Assembly: GCF_032854445.1 (NCBI RefSeq)
Contig: NC_088302.1
Location: 17,665,338-17,729,337, forward strand
DNA: 64,000 bases
Direction: 5' to 3'
DNA from: Liolophura sinensis
Lineage: Eukaryota > Mollusca > Polyplacophora > Chitonida > Chitonidae
Positions 505 through 44,492 of the stretch are shown in pieces; position 1 is the stretch's first letter; the number at the start of each line of letters is the position of its first letter. The position numbers were made by a program, and so were the translations under genes. The notes beneath the pieces are model-generated. The model saw only the letters and a program-made list of their open reading frames with translations, ran no database searches and was not told the origin of the DNA.

Positions 505-3500
505 CAGAATATTATTCTTGATATATTCAGGAGATTTTCTGTATGGGATAGATTGTCCATCATATATTCAGGAGTTTTTGTGTATTTTGTGTACAAGATA
601 AATTGTCCATCATACAGGTATATTCTGGAGATTTTCTGTATTTTCTGTATGGGATAGATTGTCCATCATATATTCAGGAGTTTTTGTGTACAAGATAAAT
701 TGTCCATCATACAGGTATATTCTGGAGATTTTCTGTATGGGATAGATTGTCCATCATATATTCAGGAGTTTTTGTGTACAAGTTAAACTGTCCATCATAC
801 AGGTATATTCAGGAGTGTTCTGTATGGGATAGATTGTCCATCATATATTCAGGAGTTTTTGTGTACAAGATAAATTGTCCATCATACAGGTATATTGAGG
901 AGATTTTCTGTATGGGATAGATTGTCCATCATATATTCAGGAGTTTTTGTGTACAAGATAAATTGTCCATCATACAGGTATATTCTGGAGATTTTCTGTA
1001 TGGGATAGATTGTCCATCATACAGGTATATTCAGGAGATTTTCTATATGGGATAGATTGTCCATCATATATTCAGGAGTTTTTGTGTACAAGATAAATTG
1101 TCCATCATACAGGTATATTCAGGAGATTTTCTATATGGGATAGATTGTCCATCATATATTCAGGAGTTTTTGTGTACAAGATAAATTGTCCATCATACAG
1201 GTATATTCTGCAGATTTTCTGTATGGGATAGATTGTCCATCATATATTCAGGAGTTTTTGTGTACAAGATAAATTGTCCATCATACAGGTATATTCTGGA
1301 GATTTTCTGTATGGGATAGATTGTCCATCATATATTCAGGAGTTTTTGTGTACAAGATAAATTGTCCATCATACAGGTATATTCTGCAGATTTTCTGTAT
1401 GGGATAGATTGTCCATTATATATTCAGGAGTTTTTGTGTACAAGATAAATTGTCCATCATACAGGTATATTCTGGAGATTTTCTGTATGGGATAGATTGT
1501 CCATTATATATTCAGGAGTTTTTGTGTACAAGATAAATTGTCCATCATACAGGTATATTCTGCAGATTTTCTGTATGGGATAGATTGTCCATTATATATT
1601 CAGGAGTTTTTGTGTACAAGATAAATTGTCCATCATACAGGTATATTCTGCAGATTTTCTGTATGGGATAGATTGTCCATCATATATTCAGGAGTTTTTG
1701 TGTACAAGATAAATTGTCCATCGTACAGGTATATTCTGGAGATTTTCTGTATGGGATAGATTGTCCATCATATATTCAGGAGTTTTTGTGTACAAGATAA
1801 ATTGTCCATCATACAGGTATATTCTGGAGATTTTCTGTATGGGATAGATTGTCCATTATATGTTCAGGAGTTTTTGTGTACAAGATAAATTGTCCATCAT
1901 ACAGGTATATTCAGGAGATTTTCTGTATGGGATAGATTGTCCATCATATATTCAGGAGTTTTTGTGTACAAGATAAATTGTCCATCATACAGGTATATTC
2001 TGCAGATTTTCTGTATGGGATAGATTGTCCATCATATATTCAGGAGTTTTTGTGTACAAGATAAATTGTCCATCGTACAGGTATATTCTGGAGATTTTCT
2101 GTATGGGATAGATTGTCCATCATATATTCAGGAGTTTTTGTGTACAAGATAAATTGTCCATCATACAGGTATATTCTGGAGATTTTCTGTATGGGATAGA
2201 TTGTCCATCATATATTCAGGAGTTTTTGTGTACAAGTTAAACTGTCCATCATACAGGTATATTCAGGAGTGTTCTGTATGGGATAGATTGTCCATCATAT
2301 ATTCAGGAGTTTTTGTGTACAAGATAAATTGTCCATCATACAGGTATATTGAGGAGATTTTCTGTATGGGATAGATTGTCCATCATATATTCAGGAGTTT
2401 TTGTGTACAAGATAAATTGTCCATCATACAGGTATATTCTGGAGATTTTCTGTATGGGATAGATTGTCCATCATACAGGTATATTCAGGAGATTTTCTAT
2501 ATGGGATAGATTGTCCATCATATATTCAGGAGTTTTTGTGTACAAGATAAATTGTCCATCATACAGGTATATTCTGCAGATTTTCTGTATGGGATAGATT
2601 GTCCATCATATATTCAGGAGTTTTTGTGTACAAGATAAATTGTCCATCATACAGGTATATTCTGGAGATTTTCTGTATGGGATAGATTGTCCATCATATA
2701 TTCAGGAGTTTTTGTGTACAAGATAAATTGTCCATCATACAGGTATATTCTGGAGATTTTCTGTATGGGATAGATTGTCCATTATATATTCAGGAGTTTT
2801 TGTGTACAAGATAAATTGTCCATCATACAGGTATATTCTGCAGATTTTCTGTATGGGATAGATTGTCCATCATATATTCAGGAGTTTTTGTGTACAAGAT
2901 AAATTGTCCATCATACAGGTATATTCTGCAGATTTTCTGTATGGGATAGATTGTCCATCATATATTCAGGAGTTTTTGTGTACAAGATAAATTGTCCATC
3001 ATACAGGTATATTCTGCAGATTTTCTGTATGGGATAGATTGTCCATTATATGTTCAGGAGTTTTTGTGTACAAGATAAATTGTCCATCATACAGGTATAT
3101 TCAGGAGATTTTCTGTATGGGATAGATTGTCCATCATATATTCAGGAGTTTTTGTGTACAAGATAAATTGTCCATCATACAGGTATCTTCTGGAGATTTT
3201 CTGTATGGGATAGATTGTCCATCAGTTATTCAGGAGGTTTTCTGTACAAAATAAATTGTCTATCATACAGGTATATTCAGGAGCTTTTCTGTGTGGGATA
3301 GATTTTCCACCATAGGAGGTATGCAGATGTGTTCAGGGGATATTCTGTGTTAGATAGGTTCTCTGCCATATAGGTATATTCAGGAGATATTATGTGTTGG
3401 ATAGGTTCTCTGCCATATAAGTGTATTCAGGAGATATTCTGTGTTAGATAGGTTCTCTGCCATATAGGTGTATTCAGGAGATATTCTGTGTTGGATAGGT

Positions 3501-21079: not shown

Positions 21080-22145
21080 AATTGACGGCCAAAAGAAACT
21101 TTACGACTCCGTGAGTTAAATTTAAGCAGCCTTTTCGGCAAATTACTACCAAATTATGAAAACATCGTACGAAACATATTCCCATGTGCGACAAACGTCA
21201 TATACGCCCACACGAATTTGTTTTGAGACAACGAAGACAGTTGAAAAATCACGTGACCCATGGATGGCCGCACCTGCACATGTAATAAGTATATAAAAAG
21301 ATTACACACAGTGTGCTGGACTTGCACACTGACTAAAAACCACCAAAGTAATGCCTCGGTTGACTCCAGAACAACCCGAGAGGGCCCTGGGCATGATATC
21401 CATAGGAGCCACCCATGCCCATATTGCAAGGATCTTCGGCTGCTCTCGTTTAACTGTGTCAAACTTTATGCAACGTTACAAACAGACAGGGCAGACATTG
21501 GACAGGCCAAGAACAGTTCAACGTTACGTGGATGAAATTCTACGTCCTGTTGTCTTGCCATTCCTTTAACAGCAGCCACGTGGTGTCCTGTACCAGCATG
21601 ACAAGGTCAGACCTCATACAGCTCGAGTTGTTCAGAACTTCCTGGACTCCAAACGACGTCAACGTCTTGCCGTGGCCTGCACGCTCCCCAGATATGTCCC
21701 CCCACAGGATACCTCTGGGATATCATGGGCTAACCTTGCAGCTAACCGACAAGAACTGGCGTTCGCTCTCCAAGATCAATGGCAAAGAATCCCATGTCAT
21801 CTCATCAGACGACTGGCTTTTTCTTTTTTCGGAGAGTTTTTGCATGCACTGAAGCAAGGGGTGGTCACACGCGATATTGATTGGCTTTGATATTGACTGA
21901 TTTTCAAAATAATCAACTTTTTGTATACTCTGCCCATTGTTAACCAAGATAGAATGGCTATTTTTCTACCCCTGCTCTGTTTGTTCACTTGTAAAATGAT
22001 TTGAGGGCTGATTTATCCATTCTTATTCAAGACTTTCAATATCTAAAGTCATTAGTCTTTTCAATTAAACTTCAGTCATCCTGTTTTTGCTTTGGTAAAA
22101 TAAATTGATTTGAACCTTTTGTAAAGTTTCTTTTGGCGGTCAGTT
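21080..22145 (+). mobile_element. Deleted Tc1/mariner-superfamily transposon
   Basis: The ends are inverted repeats: AATTGACGGCC then aaaagaaactttac at the left, and its near-perfect reverse complement at 22118-22145. TA dinucleotides flank both ends (21078-21079 and 22146-22147), the target duplication of this superfamily. Inside is a broken transposase on the + strand. The element is about 1.07 kb, shorter than an intact copy, because the middle of the transposase is missing. Confidence 0.9.
21351..21890 (+). pseudogene. Tc1-like transposase remnant
   Basis: The start reads MPRLTPEQPERALGM and then a helix-turn-helix segment (HAHIARIFGCSRLTVSNFM) typical of Tc1-type DNA-binding domains. 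The next recognisable piece is the middle of the DDE domain, with a YQHDKVRPHTARVVQ motif holding the second catalytic Asp, then 'LPWPARSPDMSP' in another frame. The first catalytic Asp region is absent and at least two frameshifts separate the pieces, so the enzyme is dead. Confidence 0.88.
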
Positions 22146-23506: not shown

Positions 23507-26500
23507 ATGACTGTCGGAGGAGAAACTGGTGATAGAGAGGACAAGGAAACCCTGAAGGAAGATGAAGACCGTGGCCACTGGAGAAACCCGCTGGAATTTC
23601 TCTTATCCACACTGGGCTATGCCATCGGTATGGGAAGCCTCTGGCGGTTTCCATATTTGGTGATGAGAAACGGAGGAGGTAAGAAATAAATACGTTTTTT
23701 TATCGCCAAAAGGAAAATGATTAGCAAAGGACGAAAAAGGAACGACTGGATGACCACGTCTGGTGGACTGGAAAAACCGATGACCCTATTAAATTCGCAA
23801 TCATTGAAAATGTTTCAAATGCAAGAAATCATGTCATGATTTCACTGCATTTTTGTTAATGGGTATTAGACATACAATGTATTTCACGAAAATTTCAGCT
23901 TTTTTAAGTAGGAGAAATAGCATGGAAACAACAAAAAATGTAGAAGTGTGTGCGTGAATTTTTACAGTTATAGTGTCAGAACAAAGTCTATCTTAACATT
24001 TGATTAAATATCGCACTTGTCACACTTGAATTGGTAAACTTTACAGTTACAGTGTCTGACAGAACAAAGTCTTCTTAACATTTGATTAAATATCACACTT
24101 GACACACTTGAATTGGGAAACTTTACAGTTACAGTGTCTGACAGAACAAAGTCTTGTTAACATTTGATTAAATATCACACTTGAAATGGGAAACTGATAT
24201 CACCTATCATATTGCACCGAAAAATTTGTCTTGTTTAGTGAAAATTGTATACAAAACAGTTGTGATGTTTTGTATGTGGTCTGTAGTGTTTAATCGTTTT
24301 GCATTATCATGGGCAATTCATTGGGGTTTTTTTATTTCATCTCGTGATATGTGGTGGTAAATCAAATATGATTCACGTTGGATCAAAGGATGTCAAGAGA
24401 TATTATGTGATCAAAAATTCACCCATTCCAAATTCGCTGGAATAAACTTGATTACTAGTTGTCATGATAACAAAAATGTGAGTATAAGATGAAATTATTA
24501 CGCTAATAAGCTTTTAACAGGTGTACAAGTGTCTGAACTACCTGTTACGTTTAAAAGAGTATAGCGTAAAAACTTTTGGAGATAAATAAGTAACCAAAAA
24601 GCTCATCAGCTCTGTAACTCAAGCATTTGTGGCACTGATATAGTTTGAAAAGTACTGTTGTGCCCTTACTTCTAGGAAATGAGAACTTGTAGGCAAATTC
24701 GTTATTGTGCTTCGGATGTTAAAGGCCGACAACTCTTCTTCACCACACGTCTAACCTATTTTAGTCCCAAAAAGTGCTAAATACCTGATGGATCATAAAT
24801 AACTCAAGATATGGTATTTGCGGTCCGTTTCTTTCCTTTTCAGGGTGGATGTAGAACCAATATGCTTTAAAATTCAATAAATATTTCATGAATATATTTT
24901 CTTATTGTGTCATCTTTTACAGGTGCCTTTTTAATTCCCTACATTATATTTGCTGCGATATTTGGATTCCCCCTATTTTTCATGGAGTCCGCATTAGGAC
25001 AATACTTCCAACAGAGTCCCATCCGGGTCTTTGACATCTGTCCCCTGTTTAAAGGTGAGCAGTACTTTGGCTTATATTTGGTGACGTTTCCTCTAGGTAC
25101 AAAGGAAGCCCATCCTCAGCAGTTTTGTTAATTTGTTAATTGACACCTGTCTCTTATCAAAGGATTATTTATGTAGTTATTTGATTGGTGTTTAACGCGT
25201 TACCCAAGACTATATGTCCCTTTTCCTCTACACTGGTTCTTATCTATAACACAAATGTATATTAGTGTAATACATGTACTTGCTGGATTTTTTGGTTCAT
25301 GGAGGCCCTACTTACACTTAGTTGGTGGATTTCTTGGTTTCATGGAGGCCCTACTTACATGTAGTTGCTGGATTTCTTGGTTTCATGGAGGCCCTACTTA
25401 CATGTAGTTGCTGGATTTCTTGGTTTCATGGAGGCCCTACTTACATGTAGTTGCTGGATCTCTTGGTTTCATGGAGGCCCTACTTACATGTAGTTGCTGG
25501 ATTTCTTGGTTTCATGGAGGCCCTAATTACATGTAGTTGCTGGATTTCTTGGTTTCATGGAGGCCCTACTTACATGTAGTTGCTGGATTTCTTGGTTTCA
25601 TGGAGGCCCTAATTACGTGTAGTTGCTGGATTTCTTGGTTTCATGGAGGCCCAACTTACATGTAATTGCTGGATTTCTTGGTTACATGGATGTCCCACTT
25701 ACATGTAATTGCAGGATTTCTTCATTTCGTGTCTTTACATGGAATTGCTGGATTTCCTAGTTTCGGTAGTGAAGAAATCACGAGTAACTCAAGATTCCTG
25801 AAAAAGAATGAACCAGGCGAGACGCGCCGAGTTTATTACTTGTCACGAATCTACAGTTACGAGTGTTTTCTCTCACTTAAGCGACACGATAGACCCATGC
25901 CATAGTTGTATATTATCTTTTAAGAATAGACAGTTTATGTGTGTGGTCTTATCCGCATAACAATACAAATACCAGGTCAGCAAGATTTCTATGGAACATG
26001 TTAAACGGATATCCTTCGTATAAAACGAAACCAAAGCATTTTGCATTTGAATCCACAAACTCCCGAGCTTGGATACTTAAAAAATGGTTAACAGCTCAGA
26101 CAATAATGTGATGTCACAACTGTCGTTTAATGTAGGCCTACGTACAGTTAATTACCGCTTTTCCTGGTTTCCTTTAGTTGTTAGATTCGTGTCTTTACAA
26201 CTTATTTCCTGTTTCCTACTTTCGTGTGTTTACATGTAATTCCTGGATTTCCTGGTTTCGTGTCTTTAAATGTGATTGCTGGATTGGTGGTTTCATGTAC
26301 TTACATGTAATTGTTGGATTTCATGGTTTCGTGTCTTTACATGCAATTCTTGGATTTGCCTCTTTTCAACATATACTTACATGTACTAATATGTAATTGG
26401 TGCATTTTCTGGTTTCATGTACCGGTACTGACATTCAATTCCTGGTTTTCTGATTTCCTGGTTTTCTGTACTTACATATGGTTGGATTTCCTGATTTCGT

Positions 26501-29500
26501 GTACTCACATGAAATTACTGGATTTGGAGGGTTCATGTATTTACATGTAATTACATGTAAATGATTATCTGATTGCTTGGTTACTTATTTTCATGTGCGT
26601 GCATGTAATTACGGAATTTCCTGATCACGTGTACTTCGATGTAATTGCTGGATTTGCTGGTTTATTGTATTTGTATTTATTTGCTGGCTTCCTGGTTTCG
26701 TATGTTTTAGGTATCGGCGTCGTGATGTGTATGGTCTCTGTTCTGGTCCCCGTGTATTACATGACTGTCATAGCCTGGGCACTGTACTTCCTGTACAACG
26801 CCTTCTCGTCTACATTGCCTTGGACGACGTGTGGAAACATCTGGAACACTAACTCCTGTATGCCGCTGACGTCACTCGGGAATGACTCCTTCAACGCTTC
26901 AGGACTGGTGTTCACAAAGCCTGTACTGTCCACAGAAGAATTCTGGGAGTACGCACATTATTTGTTATTTTCAGTTAACTATTCCTTCGAATCTACAATC
27001 TGATTATCGGCATATACTGGAAAGCAAATGGCACTATATTAGATGTTATATTCGATCATGTTTTCCTAAATGTTTCCCTAAAATCACTGGCCTTTCTCTG
27101 GGATCAATAATTTTATTTATTTGCTAATTATTTTTTATTATTATTGTCCGGCAGCACGTGAAAAGGTCTGACAACAACCTGCGGATGGTCGTGCATTTCC
27201 CCCGGGCTCTGCTCGGTTTCCTCTCCCCCACCCATAATGCTGGCAGCCGTCATATAAGTGAAATATTCTTGAGTACGGCATTAAACACCAATAAAATAAA
27301 TAAGTTAATAAATATTTTTTATTGCAATAATTTCAGTTTGCATTCACCCGTTCTTTTATTGGATATCATAGATAGCAAATTCTGGGCATCAAGGGTATGT
27401 GTTTTGCAGAAATAGTCTTTTGGTATGAAAGTGACTAGTGTGTATGAACCTTCGCTGGCAGAATGGTGTAACAGACTCTGAAGAATCTCGAATAGGCCCT
27501 TAACATTGTCATCGCACTTTCGAATCCATCTCCGCTGCCCTGACCGTGGCCTCAGCAGGCTTGTCAGATTTCTGATGAAGTGCACTGTTTTCTCGCCACT
27601 CATTCCATCGGTTCATCTGCCCATTCCATTAGTCTTCTTTTCTCATTCCTTTCGTTTCCTCCACCATTTCGCTCTGTTTCCCCCACACATTACATCGGTT
27701 TCTTCTACACATTCCCTCAAATTCCTCCTCTCATTCCCTCGGCATCCTACACCCATTCCCCTGGCATCCTCCACCTATTCCCTTAGTTTTCTCCACCCAC
27801 CTGTGCACTGGTTTTACCCCGGATCTCTCCACTCCTTCTCTCGTTTCTTTTGCACATTCAATCTGTTTTCTCCACACATCCCAGCAGTTTCCCTTGGTTT
27901 TCCCTCCCAGTCCCTCGGTTTCACCCACTCATTACGCAGAATGCAGTCAAATAAATGAAATGTTCTTTAGAATCTTATTCACTTATTTCTTTGTTCTTTA
28001 TCGTCATGGTCAAGAATCCGTTTTGAGAACTGCGTGAAACAGCACTCTAATGCATAAATTGATTTTCAGACCCTGCCCTTAGATCGTCTTCATATATATG
28101 TCACCTTTATTTAGATATATAAACTGTGTGTCTCGCGCAGCTTAGGAATTTGATCATCTTTCAAACATTTCATCCAACATGCTGACAGTGTTTCTGGCAT
28201 AAGGCTTTAGCAGAGTGATCAATCTTGCATCTCAATGTAACAGTGTGAGGTGAAATTTTGGGTAAAAGTTTGTTGTCTTGATTTTTACAGGAACAAGGTG
28301 TTGGGTATTACAGAAGGAGTGGAGGACGTTGGATCAGTCCAAGGACATTTAGCCTTAGCACTGCTTGTGGGATGGTGCTGTATATTCATCTGCATATTTA
28401 AGGGAATCGAATCGTCTAGAATAGTAAGTATCAGGGAGAAAAGTAAAGAAACGAAAAAGTTAAAATTCAGAACTGGAAATGATGACTTTTGTTTGAGACA
28501 TTGTTAATATTTATTTATTTATTTATTTATATTTTTATTTATTTATTTATTTTATTGGTGGTTTACGCCGTACTCAAGAATTTTCACATATACAACGGCG
28601 GTCAGCATTATGGTGGGTGGAATCCCGGGGGAATCCCAACAGCATCCGCAGGTTGCTGACGGACCTTCTCACGTACTGCCGGACAGGAAATCAGGATGAG
28701 ACAGTGTTAATAAAACTGTTGGCGAGGTTTAAACATACAAGGATCGTATTTACAAGAACGTCTAGGGGATATTGATTTGATTTTGTTTATCTGATTGATG
28801 TTTTACGCCGTACTCGAGAATATTTCACCTACACGACGGCGGCCAGCATTATGGTGGGAAACCCACAGCCATGGTCAGGTTGCTAGCACGTACCAGGAAA
28901 AGTGGAGGAATTGCAATCAAGACGTAAAGCTGGTGCAAGTGTGTATAAGGCACGACGCTGAAATGTGGGGACTGAACGACTATGTACATAACCATTATGC
29001 AGTCCTATTGTACACAGGGTCTTGTTATCAACAGCGTGTTTATAATAACTGGTTATGCAATAATAATAATAATTCCAATATTTGCATTCTCACAAAAATG
29101 GCGAGATTTAAATTTCAGAGAAGGGTTTAACATATAATGCTATTTGGAATAAATATTGCCCAGTTTGTATTTATATTTCCTGTCGGTATACATCATTCCA
29201 GGTATCCCGTTTATCTTATATCTCGATATCACCTTGTGTGTGCTTGTATTTCTAGGTTGTATACATCAGTCACCATCCCACTTATCCTTTATCTCGGTAT
29301 CCCCTGTGTTTGTTTGTATTTCCAGGCGGTATTCATCACCACTACCATTCCACTTATCCTGTATCTTGATATCACCCTGTGTGTGTTTTGTATTTCCAGG
29401 CTGTATACATCACCACAACCATTCCCCTTATCCTATATCCCGGTATCACCTTGTGTGTGTTTTGTATTTCCAGGCTGTATACATCACCACAACCATTCCC

Positions 29501-32500
29501 TATCCTATATCCCGATATCACCTTGTGTGTGTTTTGTATTTCCAGGCTGTATACATCACCACAACCATTCCCATTATCCTATATCCCGATATCATCTTGT
29601 GTGTGTTTTGTATTTCCAGGTGGTATATATCACCGCAACCATTCCCTATCCTATATCCCGATATCACCCTGTGTGTGTTTTGTATTTCCAGGCTGTATAC
29701 ACCACCGCAACCATACCCCTTATCCTATATCCCGATATCATCTTGTGTGTGTTTTGTATTTCCAGGCTGTATACATCACCACAACCATTCCCTATCCTAT
29801 ATCCCGATATCACCTTGTGTGTGTTTTGTATTTCCAGGCTGTATACATCACCACAACCATTCCCTATCCTATATCCCGATATCACCTTGTGTGTGTTTTG
29901 TATTTCCAGGCTGTATACATCACCACAACCATTCCCTATCCTATATCCCGATATCAGCTTGTGTGTGTTTTGTATTTCCAGGCTGTATACATCACGGCCA
30001 CTATCCCGTTTATCCTGCTGATCATCCTATGCGCCTGGTCGTCCTCATTCCCGGGCGCCACAGACGGAATGCTGATCTATATCACTCCGAGGTGGGACAA
30101 AATGAAAAATTACCAGGTGAGCTTATACTTATTTCTGACATATGAAATTCGTTAAATTTATTGGTGTCACTTTTGCTGAACACTCCAAAATGTCTCAATT
30201 AGACCAAGGGGATATGTTTAAGATAAAGGAAGCCAAATGAAGACGAGTTCAAACCACCTTCTGTCAGCAGATATCTGGCAGAGTTATTACAATTTTTGCC
30301 TGCATATTTTGTGGAGACATTTGCAAGGAAATATCACACGTGCGCTTCCTGCTAATTATGCTAATCGTGTATTTACTCGTCCTACGTTTACACAGTCTAG
30401 GTTCATTGTCTCTGGATTAATTTACAGTATACAAAAAACACTTGTGTTGCAATCTTACGCAACAACTTGTTGTGTCTTCATTTAACACCGAAATGTCTTA
30501 CCACAACGCAATCGTGTGTTAAATCTGAAGTACACATGTTTGTGTTTCAAAAATAATAAAACACAAACTTGTGTTTAACTAAAATGAGGTTATTTATACA
30601 GTAAAACTTTCTGTATTATGCAACAAGTATTGTGTATCATCAACATCAGACACATTATGTGTTCAATTCTTTCAACACATGATCTTGTGTTAATACAACA
30701 CAAGACAGAGTTCTTCAAATATGACATAAGACCTTTGTTAGAAAGAACACAAGTTTGTGTTTGTGTTGAAAACAAAACACTTCTCGCAGATTCCTGAAGA
30801 AGTTATTGCATTATTAAGTAAGATCAGAATAAATGTAGAATTTATGTGTATTTTATTTATATATTTTATACCCACTCCATTCGTAATCTTCACCGTTGTC
30901 ATGTAAGTGAAAATGTCTTGATGTTTTCGGCGTTAAATCTGGGCGTCGTAAGAGATATTTTTATATCAGCTGTCAACCAGGTCAGCACTCGAAAGACCAA
31001 CTTCCAACTAACAATGTTCAATACAAACCACCCAGAACAAAGAAAGTAGACCGCTATAAAATAAAATATTCAGACTGAGTCATGTAAAGAAAGGCAGCCC
31101 ACATTTTTCAGTGATGTAGGAAAGACGCAAGGAGCTTTCGTGTATAAACCAGGATTCTGCTGGTGGACTAAGCATCCCCGAGACCTGGATCTTGTATATT
31201 AACCGTGATACACACCACAGTGTTTTGAGTAGCTCATCAGTGACGTGTAATAAATTACAATTAACATCACTGCATTTTTTGCCTAATTCTGCTTAGACCA
31301 TAATGCTGGGGGGCATGTAATTTGCTACTGGTTAAGCATTTACATGCACAGTCAGAATAAAACCCTGAGTGAGGTAAATTGGCAAGAGGCTGTGTTTGCC
31401 TTACGTGTGACCAATTGCCAGCTATCACACTGTCGTGGCTGCTCTGGTTTTACTTTCTATGCCGTACGTTTTTAATCATGTTTATTTTATATGCGCGTAA
31501 ATTTAATCTGCGTCTTAATGGTGCACCGTCTTATTTTTATAAGATGTCTTTAGCCTGGACGCTTTAATTGCTATTGCTCAAGCATCGAATCAACAGGATA
31601 CATATACAGCCCCTAGCAACACGATGCATATACAGCCCTTAGCAACACGATGCATACACAGCAGCTAGTCCCTTATTAATCGGACTTAAGTTACATGTAG
31701 ACATAGTTGATGATTTGATGAATCAGAACACAGAAATATTTGCGCGATACTCAAGAAAATTAACTTATAACGACAATGGTCAGGTTAATGAGTGGAGGAT
31801 ACCACCGCCCATCGACTGTCGAGTACCTGGCAAATTTCTGACTCAATGCCGCAGTGACGTTAAGTACTAATTGTCTGTCCCTGTTCTCTCTGCGTTCACC
31901 AGGTATGGGTGGAAGCATTCATCCAAGTCTTCAACTCACTCGGCCCAGCGTGGGGAGGTCTCATCACACTGTCTAGCTTCAACCCCTTCCGCCATAACTG
32001 TGTGAGGTAGGCACGTGTACATGTAAATCTACAGCTCTCGGCTTGAATAAAGTCATCAAAAATGTGACAACAGCAGGAGACAATATATAGTTTTCGCATC
32101 GACGTACTTTTATTCTGAGTGTTGTACACGGTGCCCCAGAAGTCGTGCACCATCCTGATTTTCATTTTTTTTCTGTGTTTCAGATTTAATACTGATTTTA
32201 ATTTTTTTCTCTATCTTTCAGAGTTAATTATGGCTAATAAACTAACAGTACAAAAAAGACTTGAATTTTGTTTTGACTTATGTTTGGAAGAGATGGGGCA
32301 ACACAAGCATTCAACCTCAACGTGGATGGTGCACGACTTCTGGGACACCCTGTATTTTGAATTTCAGGGTGAGATGATGCAAATAACGGACAAAGTTGCA
32401 GCCTGTTATTAGCCACATTGGCCGGTTGTCAAGTGTGCGCATAGATATATAGGGTGGTTTTATATTATAATTTACGATTCATTTCAAGAGAAAAAAACAC

Positions 32501-41506: not shown

Positions 41507-44492
41507 ATGAAGGTTCTACTGGCTGGTCTCCTTATTCTGTCGGGTGAGTTTATCATATTTCATCTGGTTCTGGTAACTGGTGTGAATCAAAACTTTTATT
41601 CACCGTTTAGGCTTACGTTCGCTCTGCCCGGTTTCCTCCCACAACATATAATGCTGGCCGCCATCGTATAAACACCAATCAAATAAATAAATAACACCAT
41701 GTACATTCATTTCAATTGCTCAATTATCGCATCATGAAAAACAATTCTTTTCTTAAGACGTCTACATTATATTGCTATAGAAATTTTTTTGTGAGCGTTT
41801 ACCTTAAAAAAAACTTAGGCTACTGCATATTACCATTGCCGTTGTACCTTAGTTTTAAGGGAATATAGAAATAAAAGAGAATATGGACAAAGCCCTGACT
41901 TTATTATTGCAAACTGAAAAATTACCACACTAACTCATTACCACGCACAACGTTGTCTGAATTGTTTTTGTTTCGGGTTATCCGCACAGTGATGGGCCAG
42001 GCTTACATGTGTGGACATCCGATGAAGAGTTGCGCCATTAGGGATATCAGCAGCCAAACGCCACTTAGTTGTAGGTAAGTCACCTAAAACGTCCATTCAA
42101 ACGTCACTCGTCTGTAGGTAAGTCACCCAGAAACATCCATTCAAACATCACTTGTCCGTAGGCGAGTCACTTCTAAACGTCTATTAGGCGTCACAATACT
42201 GTAGGTATGTCAACCCTGACGTCACTCAACTGTATAAGTAAATCAACCTAGAACGTCCATTTAGACGTCACTAATAAGCCAACCCAAAATATCCATTCAG
42301 ACGTCACTGGCCTGTAGGTAAGTCAATCCAAAACATCCACTTCAACGTCGAACCTCTCAGCTGTAGGTAAGTCAAACCAAAACGTCCATTTAGGTGTCAC
42401 TAGGCTGTAGGTAAATCAACCCTGACGTCACTCAGCTGTATGAGTAAGTCAACCCAAAACGTCCATTCAGACGTCACTAGTAAGTCAACCCAAAATATCC
42501 ATTCAGACGTCACACGCCTGTAGGTAAGTCAATCCAAAACGTCAGTTTGGACGTCGAGTCAATCGGCTGTATGTAAGTCAACCCAAAACGTCCATTTTGG
42601 TGTCACTAGGCTGTAGGTAAATCAACCCTGACGTCACTCAGCTGTATAAGTAAGTCAACCCAAAACGTCCATTTAGACGTCACTAGTAAGTCAACCCAAA
42701 ATATCCATTCAGACGTCACTCGCCTGTAGGTAAGTCAATCCAAAATGTCAGTTTGGACGTCGAGTCAATCGGCTGTAGGTAAGTCAACCCAAAACGTCCA
42801 TTTTGGTGTCACTAGGCTGTAGGTAAATCAACCCTAACGTCACTCAGCTGGATAAGGAAGTCACCCCAAAACGTCCATTTAGACGTCGAACCACTCGGCT
42901 GTAGGTAAGTCGACCCAAAACGTCCATTTAGGCGTCAGTAGGCTGTAGGTAAGTCAACCCTGACGTCACTCAGCTGTATAAGGAAGTCAACCCAAAACGT
43001 CCATTTAGACGTCACTAGTAAGTCAACCCAAAATATCCATTCAGACGTCACTCGCCTGTAGGTAAGTCAATCGAAAACATCCACTTAGACGTCGAGTCAA
43101 TCGGCTGTAGGTAAGTCAACCCTGACGTCACTCAGCTGTATAAGTAAGTTAACCCAAAACGTCACTCGTACGTTAGTCGTCCCAAAACGTCACTTATTTG
43201 TAGGTAAGTCAGCTCAAAACGTCTGTTTGTGGATAAATTCCCATCAAATAAATGAAAAACGTCACTTATCTGCAGATAAGACAACCCAAAACATCACCCA
43301 ATTGTATAATAAAGCAAGCCAACCCAAAACGACCATTCGGACGTTACTCAGCTGGTACAGTAAATGTAAATCAGCCAGAACATCACTGATTGTGTTACCC
43401 CCAGGCTCTGCCGTGTTCCTCCCACCGTAATACTGGCCGCGGTGGTATAAGTGAATTCTTTTTGAGTATAACGTAAAACCCTTAAAACGTTACGCAGCTG
43501 TGAGCTAGTCAACCCAAGTCGTCACTCAGTTCTTGGTAAGTCAACCCAAGACTGACTATGTGATAAAAGTGCATATTTTTTTTTAATTTACAATAAAACT
43601 TCAAAGTAGTTTATCGTTTTATCATAAATGATTTTTTATTTCACACATGACAGCGTGATATATTATGATATTTCGTCAAACTTACTTGGAAGGTTATTAC
43701 ATTATGTTTCAGAGCTGTAGAAAGCATGGTATATTGCTTAGAGAGCAAAAGTAGGGGATGCTCGGAGGACGATCGTCAGATCGCCGAGGAAGTTGTCCGC
43801 AGCGCGAAATCCAGATATGCCTATTGCTACTTCAGCAACGGTGAGTTTGCAACACGCATTCTTCGCTTTATAACACTATGTAAAACCGTTTTTCTTGAAT
43901 CGAGGTGAGGAAATAGAAATCTATATCAGCCATCAACCATAATGGACATTCCGGGTTAATACTCGAAAGACCAATTTCCAAAACAATGGTCAACATAAAC
44001 CAACAAACAGCTGAACCAGAAATTAGGACGAATTTATGCGAAGAGGTGAACTCAGCTTTCCAACCCTAACTACAGACCTTTACCATTTGCTGCTTTGGTA
44101 TATTTGCCATTAGTATATTGAATCCTCACTATCAATGTCAAGACTTCAATCTTCAAACAGACTTCAAATTCTCAGTTCGTGATAGTGTCCTGCGAATTTG
44201 ATAAAAAAAAAAAAAAAAAATTATGGAGTGCCATATTGCTTTGAACAAGAATTCGGTTAACTTCCAAAGAGTCTTGTTTACACCATTTGGTAGAATTTTC
44301 ATGCTTTCTTCAACTATATTTTTTACACCGGTTGTGAAAAGGTTACGGTACTTATCTACATGCGTCCTGACGTTCATATAGACGCTTTATACATTTTTCC
44401 TTCATTTTTCAGCCTCCCTGATGAAGAGTTCCAATGCTTTGATCCCAGCCATCATCGTCACATGGATAAGTTACTTGACGAGCCGGACATAA
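41507..44492 (+). CDS. Small secreted six-cysteine protein, 4 exons
   Basis: Exons 41507-41543, 41990-42074, 43713-43840 and 44413-44492 join with perfect phases (1, 2, 1) at GT-AG junctions. They give 109 residues. Residues 1-17 (MKVLLAGLLILSVMGQA) form a clear signal peptide. The mature part has six Cys at about 20, 27, 40, 49, 57 and 79, enough for three disulfides. The end (SSNALIPAIIVTWISYLTSR) is small residues plus a hydrophobic stretch. It could be a GPI-anchor signal or a membrane tail. I do not recognise the family; small extracellular Cys-rich domains of molluscs are the broad comparison. Intron 2 is almost wholly a minisatellite derived from its own 5' splice site. The gene was missed by simple ORF reading because every exon is under 45 codons. 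Confidence 0.82.
41606..41695 (+). repeat. SINE 3' fragment in intron 1 of the secreted-protein gene
   Basis: Contains 'gctctgcccggtttcctccc', 'ataatgctggccgccatcgt', 'caccaatcaaataaataaat'. Confidence 0.85.
42055..43560 (+). repeat. ~45-bp array of duplicated 5' splice sites (exon 2 end plus GTAAGT)
   Basis: The exon 2 end 'acgccacttagttgtag' followed by gtaagtca is the first unit. It recurs as 'acgtcactcgcctgtag' followed by gtaagtcaa with 'cccaaaacgtccatt' spacers, in about 30 units of 40-50 bp. The exact string gtaggtaagt occurs about 12 times, including the real donor at 42075. Longer composite periods of about 205 bp are visible (for example 42520 against 42724). A SINE fragment interrupts at about 43390-43485. 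Confidence 0.93.
43390..43485 (+). repeat. SINE 3' fragment inside the donor array
   Basis: Contains 'cctcccaccgtaatactggc' and 'ggtataagtgaattc', main-family 3' blocks, with array units on both sides. Confidence 0.75.
43918..44032 (+). repeat. Dispersed repeat family D, copy
   Basis: Contains 'atcagccatcaaccataatg', 'ctcgaaagaccaatttcca' and 'aaacaatggtcaacataaac'. It lies in intron 3 of the secreted-protein gene. Confidence 0.65.

Follow-up and report, generated by a model that had tools for sequence, protein, structure and literature searches.

A gene of the SLC6 family in the chiton Liolophura sinensis raises a question about how splice sites are chosen. In the stretch of 64,000 nucleotides of contig NC_088302.1 that was analysed (the window), the 3′ end of intron 4 of this gene carries 11 YAG acceptors (29255-29981) ahead of exon 5, in units of 70-74 bp. 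Which of these acceptors is the original one, how did the others arise, and would the splicing machinery be expected to use them? The features concerned are the following:

28291..28423, + strand: coding exon 4 of the SLC6 gene (Pfam SNF, 28.8 bits; donor GTAAGT at 28424; joined frame of exons 1-5 open)
28424..29981, + strand: intron 4, 1558 nt, delimited by its donor and acceptor, with the array as its 3′ half
29202..29325, + strand: 5′ copies of the array, the most diverged (acceptors 29255 and 29325; 62-82% identity to other copies)
29326..29765, + strand: central part of the array, where 74- and 72-bp units alternate for the most part and make up a 146-bp higher-order repeat (from Tandem Repeats Finder and copy comparison; acceptors 29399 to 29765)
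29766..29981, + strand: three exon-adjoining 72-bp units, two identical and the last with one base change (acceptors 29837, 29909 and 29981; identity 0.99-1.00)
29982..30116, + strand: coding exon 5 (TM5), taken as authentic, with donor GTGAGC (Pfam SNF, 32.3 bits; solved SLC6 chains; 33/33 paralogs)

All seven of the exons given to Pfam match SNF/SLC6 (PF00209) with 28.0-65.8 bits over a cut-off of 27, and exons 1 to 5 join in one continuous open frame, whose product finds solved SLC6 chains with a best E of 5.4e-76. When the genome was searched with exon 5 (45 residues), 33 other copies were returned, and in each of them (33/33) the homologous first codon is immediately preceded by an AG; three of these paralogs (L072, L053 and L094) themselves carry upstream acceptor copies. 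Moreover, the protein encoded through the 29981/29982 junction aligns without any gap across it to each of the three solved SLC6 chains with alignments shown, two of betaine transporters and one of GABA transporter 3. Given the AG common to all paralogs and this gap-free alignment, 29981/29982 is very probably the authentic, ancestral junction, the other ten acceptors being extra.

The acceptors are located at 29255, 29325, 29399, 29473, 29545, 29619, 29691, 29765, 29837, 29909 and 29981, with spacings from 5′ to 3′ of 70, 74, 74, 72, 74, 72, 74, 72, 72 and 72 bp, and a degenerate twelfth is found at 29201. Nine of the 11 share an identical terminal 22 nt, and Tandem Repeats Finder reports the region with a period of 72 (29211-29995, 10.8 copies) and with a period of 146 (29212-29995, 5.4 copies), at 91% matches. 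Judged by eye, the 74-bp form of the unit is composed of about 38 nt of the end of intron 4 and about 36 nt of the start of exon 5. The two structural claims of the earlier note, namely that 11 near-identical acceptors precede exon 5 and that a minisatellite arose by amplification of the intron-exon boundary itself, are thus borne out. The start of exon 5 coincides with the commonest unit of the array over its first 14 bases, GCTGTATACATCAC, and diverges beyond them. None of the ten upstream copies has lost the YAG. The acceptor region resembles the sequence upstream of it far more than shuffles do (z = 15.1 for positions -20..+25 and 21.7 for -40..+5), and a DNA search of the genome with the array sequence, in which common words were skipped, gave five matches, all inside the array. 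The copies also show a gradient, the two 5′ units being 0.62-0.82 identical to the rest and the three 3′ units 0.99-1.00 among themselves. Two of these three have an exact counterpart in the unit that ends at 29545, which indicates that units of the array have been homogenised.

Arrays of this kind have a precedent in lancelets. The available parts of two publications describe so-called mirage minisatellites in the genes for Adh3, the globins BflGb6 and BflGb9, troponin C and PGBD5, with units of 10-72 bp in Adh3 and 150-160 bp in a globin gene (PMC3087553, PMC3902484). In both the lancelet mirages and the SLC6 array, the repeats straddle an intron-exon boundary, splice signals are present in many units, and concerted evolution has acted inside the cluster with the edge copy left out. 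Three traits of a mirage are found in our case: the unit joins an intron end to an exon start, the splice signal is kept, and homogenised inner copies are accompanied by a diverged edge. Unlike the lancelet examples, the new ones belong to a mollusc and to SLC6 and P450 genes, and in the window array each of the ten upstream copies has a YAG. That the genome is molluscan agrees with eight haemocyanin domains of the type found in molluscs, arranged in tandem on one of its contigs; for one of these domains the best solved match is a haemocyanin subunit of 3314 residues, with eight matched stretches. In lancelets, splicing (for Adh3, globin and troponin C) and length variation have been studied. 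According to PMC3087553, many mirage units have splice signals that could serve as cryptic sites, a point against predominant use of 29981; its RT-PCR results and the Adh3 data, however, speak for undisturbed regular splicing (PMC3087553), and the mirages of Adh and troponin C are cited as giving no aberrant mRNAs (PMC3902484). The PGBD5 mirage was added without transcript proof, and in the model of this lancelet gene a predicted exon is placed inside the mirage repeats (PMC3902484), which likewise counts against it. One lancelet mirage differs in length between two haplotypes (6 and 3 units), and somatic instability of the Adh3 mirage is cited in the available text of the same paper (PMC3087553). 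By analogy with those two haplotypes, length variation between individuals is plausible for the chiton array.

Two other systems invite comparison, again from the parts of the publications that were available. The IFI6-type minisatellite is similar in that its units are splice sites, but these are donor sites, of which the downstream repeats are used and three mRNA species result (PMC4526556); the SLC6 array was considered as a member of this type and rejected, its repeated sites being acceptors. In a potato RdRp gene, intron gain by tandem genomic duplication (PMC4974935) also ties duplication to splice sites, although the potato case is a new intron, whereas the position of the SLC6 intron is common to 33/33 paralogs. 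No mirage outside lancelets, molluscs included, was found in the open-licence literature searched, and the available text of a mollusc paper (PMC3862624) deals with microsatellites only, with no mirage. As far as these searches reach, the SLC6 array is a long, intact example of a mirage in a new phylum, Mollusca.

How alike the acceptors are for the splicing machinery was approached with a position matrix for 3′ splice sites made from 102 other acceptors of the same genome (leave-one-out median of 11.1, 5-95% range of 2.0-15.9). The real acceptor at 29981 scores 13.6 and the ten copies 9.2-16.5 (from 5′ to 3′: 9.2, 16.1, 13.1, 13.4, 13.4, 16.5, 13.1, 13.7, 13.4 and 13.4), that is, from the 29th to the 96th percentile of the 102 acceptors. 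Two of the upstream copies, 29325 (16.1) and 29619 (16.5), outscore the real site by more than one point, which speaks against a predominant use of 29981. None of the 39 AGs in the stretch from 28430 to 29180 scores above 4.9, and the degenerate copy at 29201 reaches 7.5. The last copy is the only one with an extra in-frame AG, at 29957 (8 residues; matrix score of 1.4), and the only one with ATCAG about 25 nt upstream, where the others have ATCAC or ATCAT; this ATCAG adjoins the likeliest branch point, picked by eye. Matrix scores do not separate the real site from its copies, in agreement with the earlier remark that there is little local sequence with which to choose among the acceptors.

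The consequences for the protein would depend on the acceptor used. Four of them (29399, 29765, 29837 and 29909) keep an open reading frame in phase with exon 5, with inserts of 194, 72, 48 and 24 residues; the earlier note had called the copies starting at 29400, 29766, 29838 and 29910 in frame and had given the inserts of 24, 48 and 72 residues. From 29473 and 29545 the frame is shifted and stays open through exon 5; 29325, 29619 and 29691 shift it and run into a stop in exon 5 (at 30019), and 29255 is in frame with a stop within the array. Altogether, six of the ten upstream copies give a frameshift or a stop, and the three nearest to the exon, 72, 144 and 216 nt upstream of the real acceptor, are all in frame and open. 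It had also been claimed that the copies with 74-bp spacing shift the frame while all three frames are open: the frames are indeed open within 29370-30018. As a sign of coding use, three open frames were considered and rejected, since shuffling the unit left all three open in 277 of 5000 trials (5.5%), which makes the observation unremarkable.

These frames bear on two explanations that give the array a function. In the first, the upstream acceptors would be used in graded amounts, and copy number would set the mix of isoforms with 24, 48, 72 or 194 residues before TM5. Such a role would agree with ten upstream copies that all have a YAG and score like real acceptors, and it predicts the three nearest copies in frame and open, a point that counts against the array as a mere passenger. 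We nevertheless regard it as unlikely, because six of the ten copies disrupt the frame, the protein without inserts is the one that aligns gap-free to the solved chains, for published mirages normal splicing is reported in the available text (PMC3087553, PMC3902484), and it would be nothing unusual for copies of such similarity all to have a YAG (rough estimate of about 0.16). With the AG before the same codon in every paralog added to this, the proposal of the earlier note that copy number tunes isoforms finds no support. In the second explanation, a shade less likely than the first, out-of-frame copies would send some transcripts to nonsense-mediated decay, so that array length would lower expression. 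The stop at 30019 reached from three copies and the one within the array reached from 29255 are what it calls for, yet the copies nearest to the exon are precisely the in-frame ones, and the lancelet precedent, in the text available, is normal splicing (PMC3902484).

The SLC6 gene of the window is accompanied by other cases in the same genome. From the 109 hits of an SLC6 search, 60 stretches were fetched. At 105 SLC6 acceptors of four exons, the 340 nt upstream were examined for copies of the acceptor region, and such self-copies were found for six of these acceptors, the window's included. Exon 5 contributes four of 34 (window gene, L072, L053 and L094) and coding exon 2 two of 40 (L127 and L120), with no upstream self-copy at the acceptors of exon 6 (0/20) and exon 7 (0/11). 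For the P450 family, 40 of the 99 listed hits were fetched, and one of the 22 usable acceptors, those with a score of at least 4, was positive (L197, a long array with a 32-bp unit). When the three window rows are left out, six of 124 acceptors are positive, five from SLC6 and one from P450. As to the composition of these sets, the 40 rows of coding exon 2 include the window, and the hits in L004, L054 and L055 were unused among 42 others; the exon 6 set used 19 of 21 other hits, and the exon 7 set 11 of 16, without the window's own exon 7. In an earlier run L007, which resembles exon 2, was negative, and so were L009 and L059, which resemble exon 5 and are outside the 34.

The arrays at these loci are diverse. 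The one before exon 5 of L072 has a 69-bp unit in about 12 copies, and its YAG is kept in four of 11 upstream copies, the other seven reading CAT; these four are all in frame, and three of them reach a stop before exon 5. As a possible sign of shared ancestry with the window array, the intron end of L072 ranks first of 33 in similarity to it, though by a one-point margin (34 vs 33). L127 shows three acceptor sites, 70 and 68 bp apart, L120 has by eye a single, diverged copy, and in the shorter arrays the units measure 53, 55 and 68 bp. Outside the counted sets and positive by eye, coding exon 2 of another SLC6 gene (L054:145-290) has a 68-bp tandem duplication of its acceptor and exon start, with two acceptors 68 nt apart. 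The acceptor sequences copied at other loci differ from those of the window array, and they occur on several contigs (C1, C4, C8 and C10). This diversity makes it very improbable that the array, or its number of copies, was made or miscounted by the assembler. One lancelet mirage was apparently aberrantly assembled in a draft genome, according to the available part of PMC3087553, but here substitutions and a 2-nt length change set the copies apart, along a gradient. The exact copy number of the array could still be wrong in the assembly.

As a background, 30 of 510 positions located 150-640 nt upstream of SLC6 exons were positive, in 13 of 85 loci, a rough rate in that six of the 30 positives are in L072 and scores under 36 were taken as negative without shuffling. 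No general enrichment at acceptors was seen (6/105 vs 30/510), and none is claimed for exon 5 (4/34 vs 2/71 for the others, Fisher p = 0.085, with the window row chosen in advance; 4/34 vs 0/27 in an earlier run). Minisatellites are frequent in this genome and, with 6/124 acceptors against 30/510 background positions, 3′ splice sites are not clearly spared or favoured by them in this small sample.

As a lead, drawn from two cases, the long SLC6 arrays with units of 72 and 69 bp point towards the idea that long acceptor arrays persist where leakage is in frame, which would give a copy-number-dependent ladder of in-frame isoforms. The three nearest copies of the window and all four YAG copies of L072 are in frame, as this idea would have it, and the units of 53, 55 and 68 bp belong to shorter arrays. 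Three of the four L072 copies run into a stop, however, the unit of L197 is 32 bp long, and five of the ten spacings in the window array measure 70 or 74 bp, so that such a ladder seems improbable to us.

Other repeats occur in the window. One of them lies in a neighbouring intron of the same gene:

25271..26703, + strand: older, decayed minisatellite of intron 2, with 43- and 36-bp units (Tandem Repeats Finder)

It resembles the stretch of 60 nt that precedes the exon-3 acceptor (26710), with no repetition of the AG, and the similarity of this acceptor to its upstream sequence gives z = 7.6 for positions -60..0 and 2.7 for -20..+25. A 37-bp dimer (32155-32228) in the intron that separates exons 6 and 7 has a consensus with an acceptor-like TTTCTCTATCTTTCAG. 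A tandem array at 42000-43300 holds 12 exact AGGTAAGT donor-consensus words, which are all 12 of those on the + strand of the window, and a large minisatellite at 804-3267 has 88-bp units with higher-order periods of 176 and 264 bp. Open frames at 21333-21887 resemble, by eye, what we take to be pieces of a Tc1/mariner-type transposase.

Altogether, the array before exon 5 is probably a mirage minisatellite of which the 3′-most acceptor would be mainly used, a reading favoured by the composition of the unit, the gradient among copies, the AG in 33/33 paralogs, the gap-free alignment, the acceptor copies in other genes and the lancelet precedent. A segment straddling the 3′ splice site of exon 5 would have been amplified in tandem, and repeated duplication, through slippage or unequal exchange, would have made the array grow into the intron, since only the 3′-most copy is attached to an intact coding exon. 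The 72-bp unit, 2 nt shorter than the 74-bp form, may have arisen from it by deletion. Splicing would then occur predominantly at the 3′-most acceptor, and what selects it may be the 135-nt exon body with its donor (exon definition) rather than the acceptor itself; exon definition is the likeliest selector because the 3′-most copy alone is joined to a complete 135-nt exon and a donor. Leakage to the upstream copies would be low at most, and the array would be mostly a tolerated passenger.

If splicing is normal, ten acceptors of similar local strength are passed over and the eleventh is taken, and exon-side information must therefore decide. In that case, the SLC6 array would be a natural version of the experiments in which splice sites are duplicated. 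Within the open-licence literature searched, it extends mirages from lancelets to a mollusc, and with about one in 20 of the acceptors sampled (6/124) having an upstream copy of itself, the rule of choice among near-identical 3′ splice sites becomes testable by ordinary RNA-seq.
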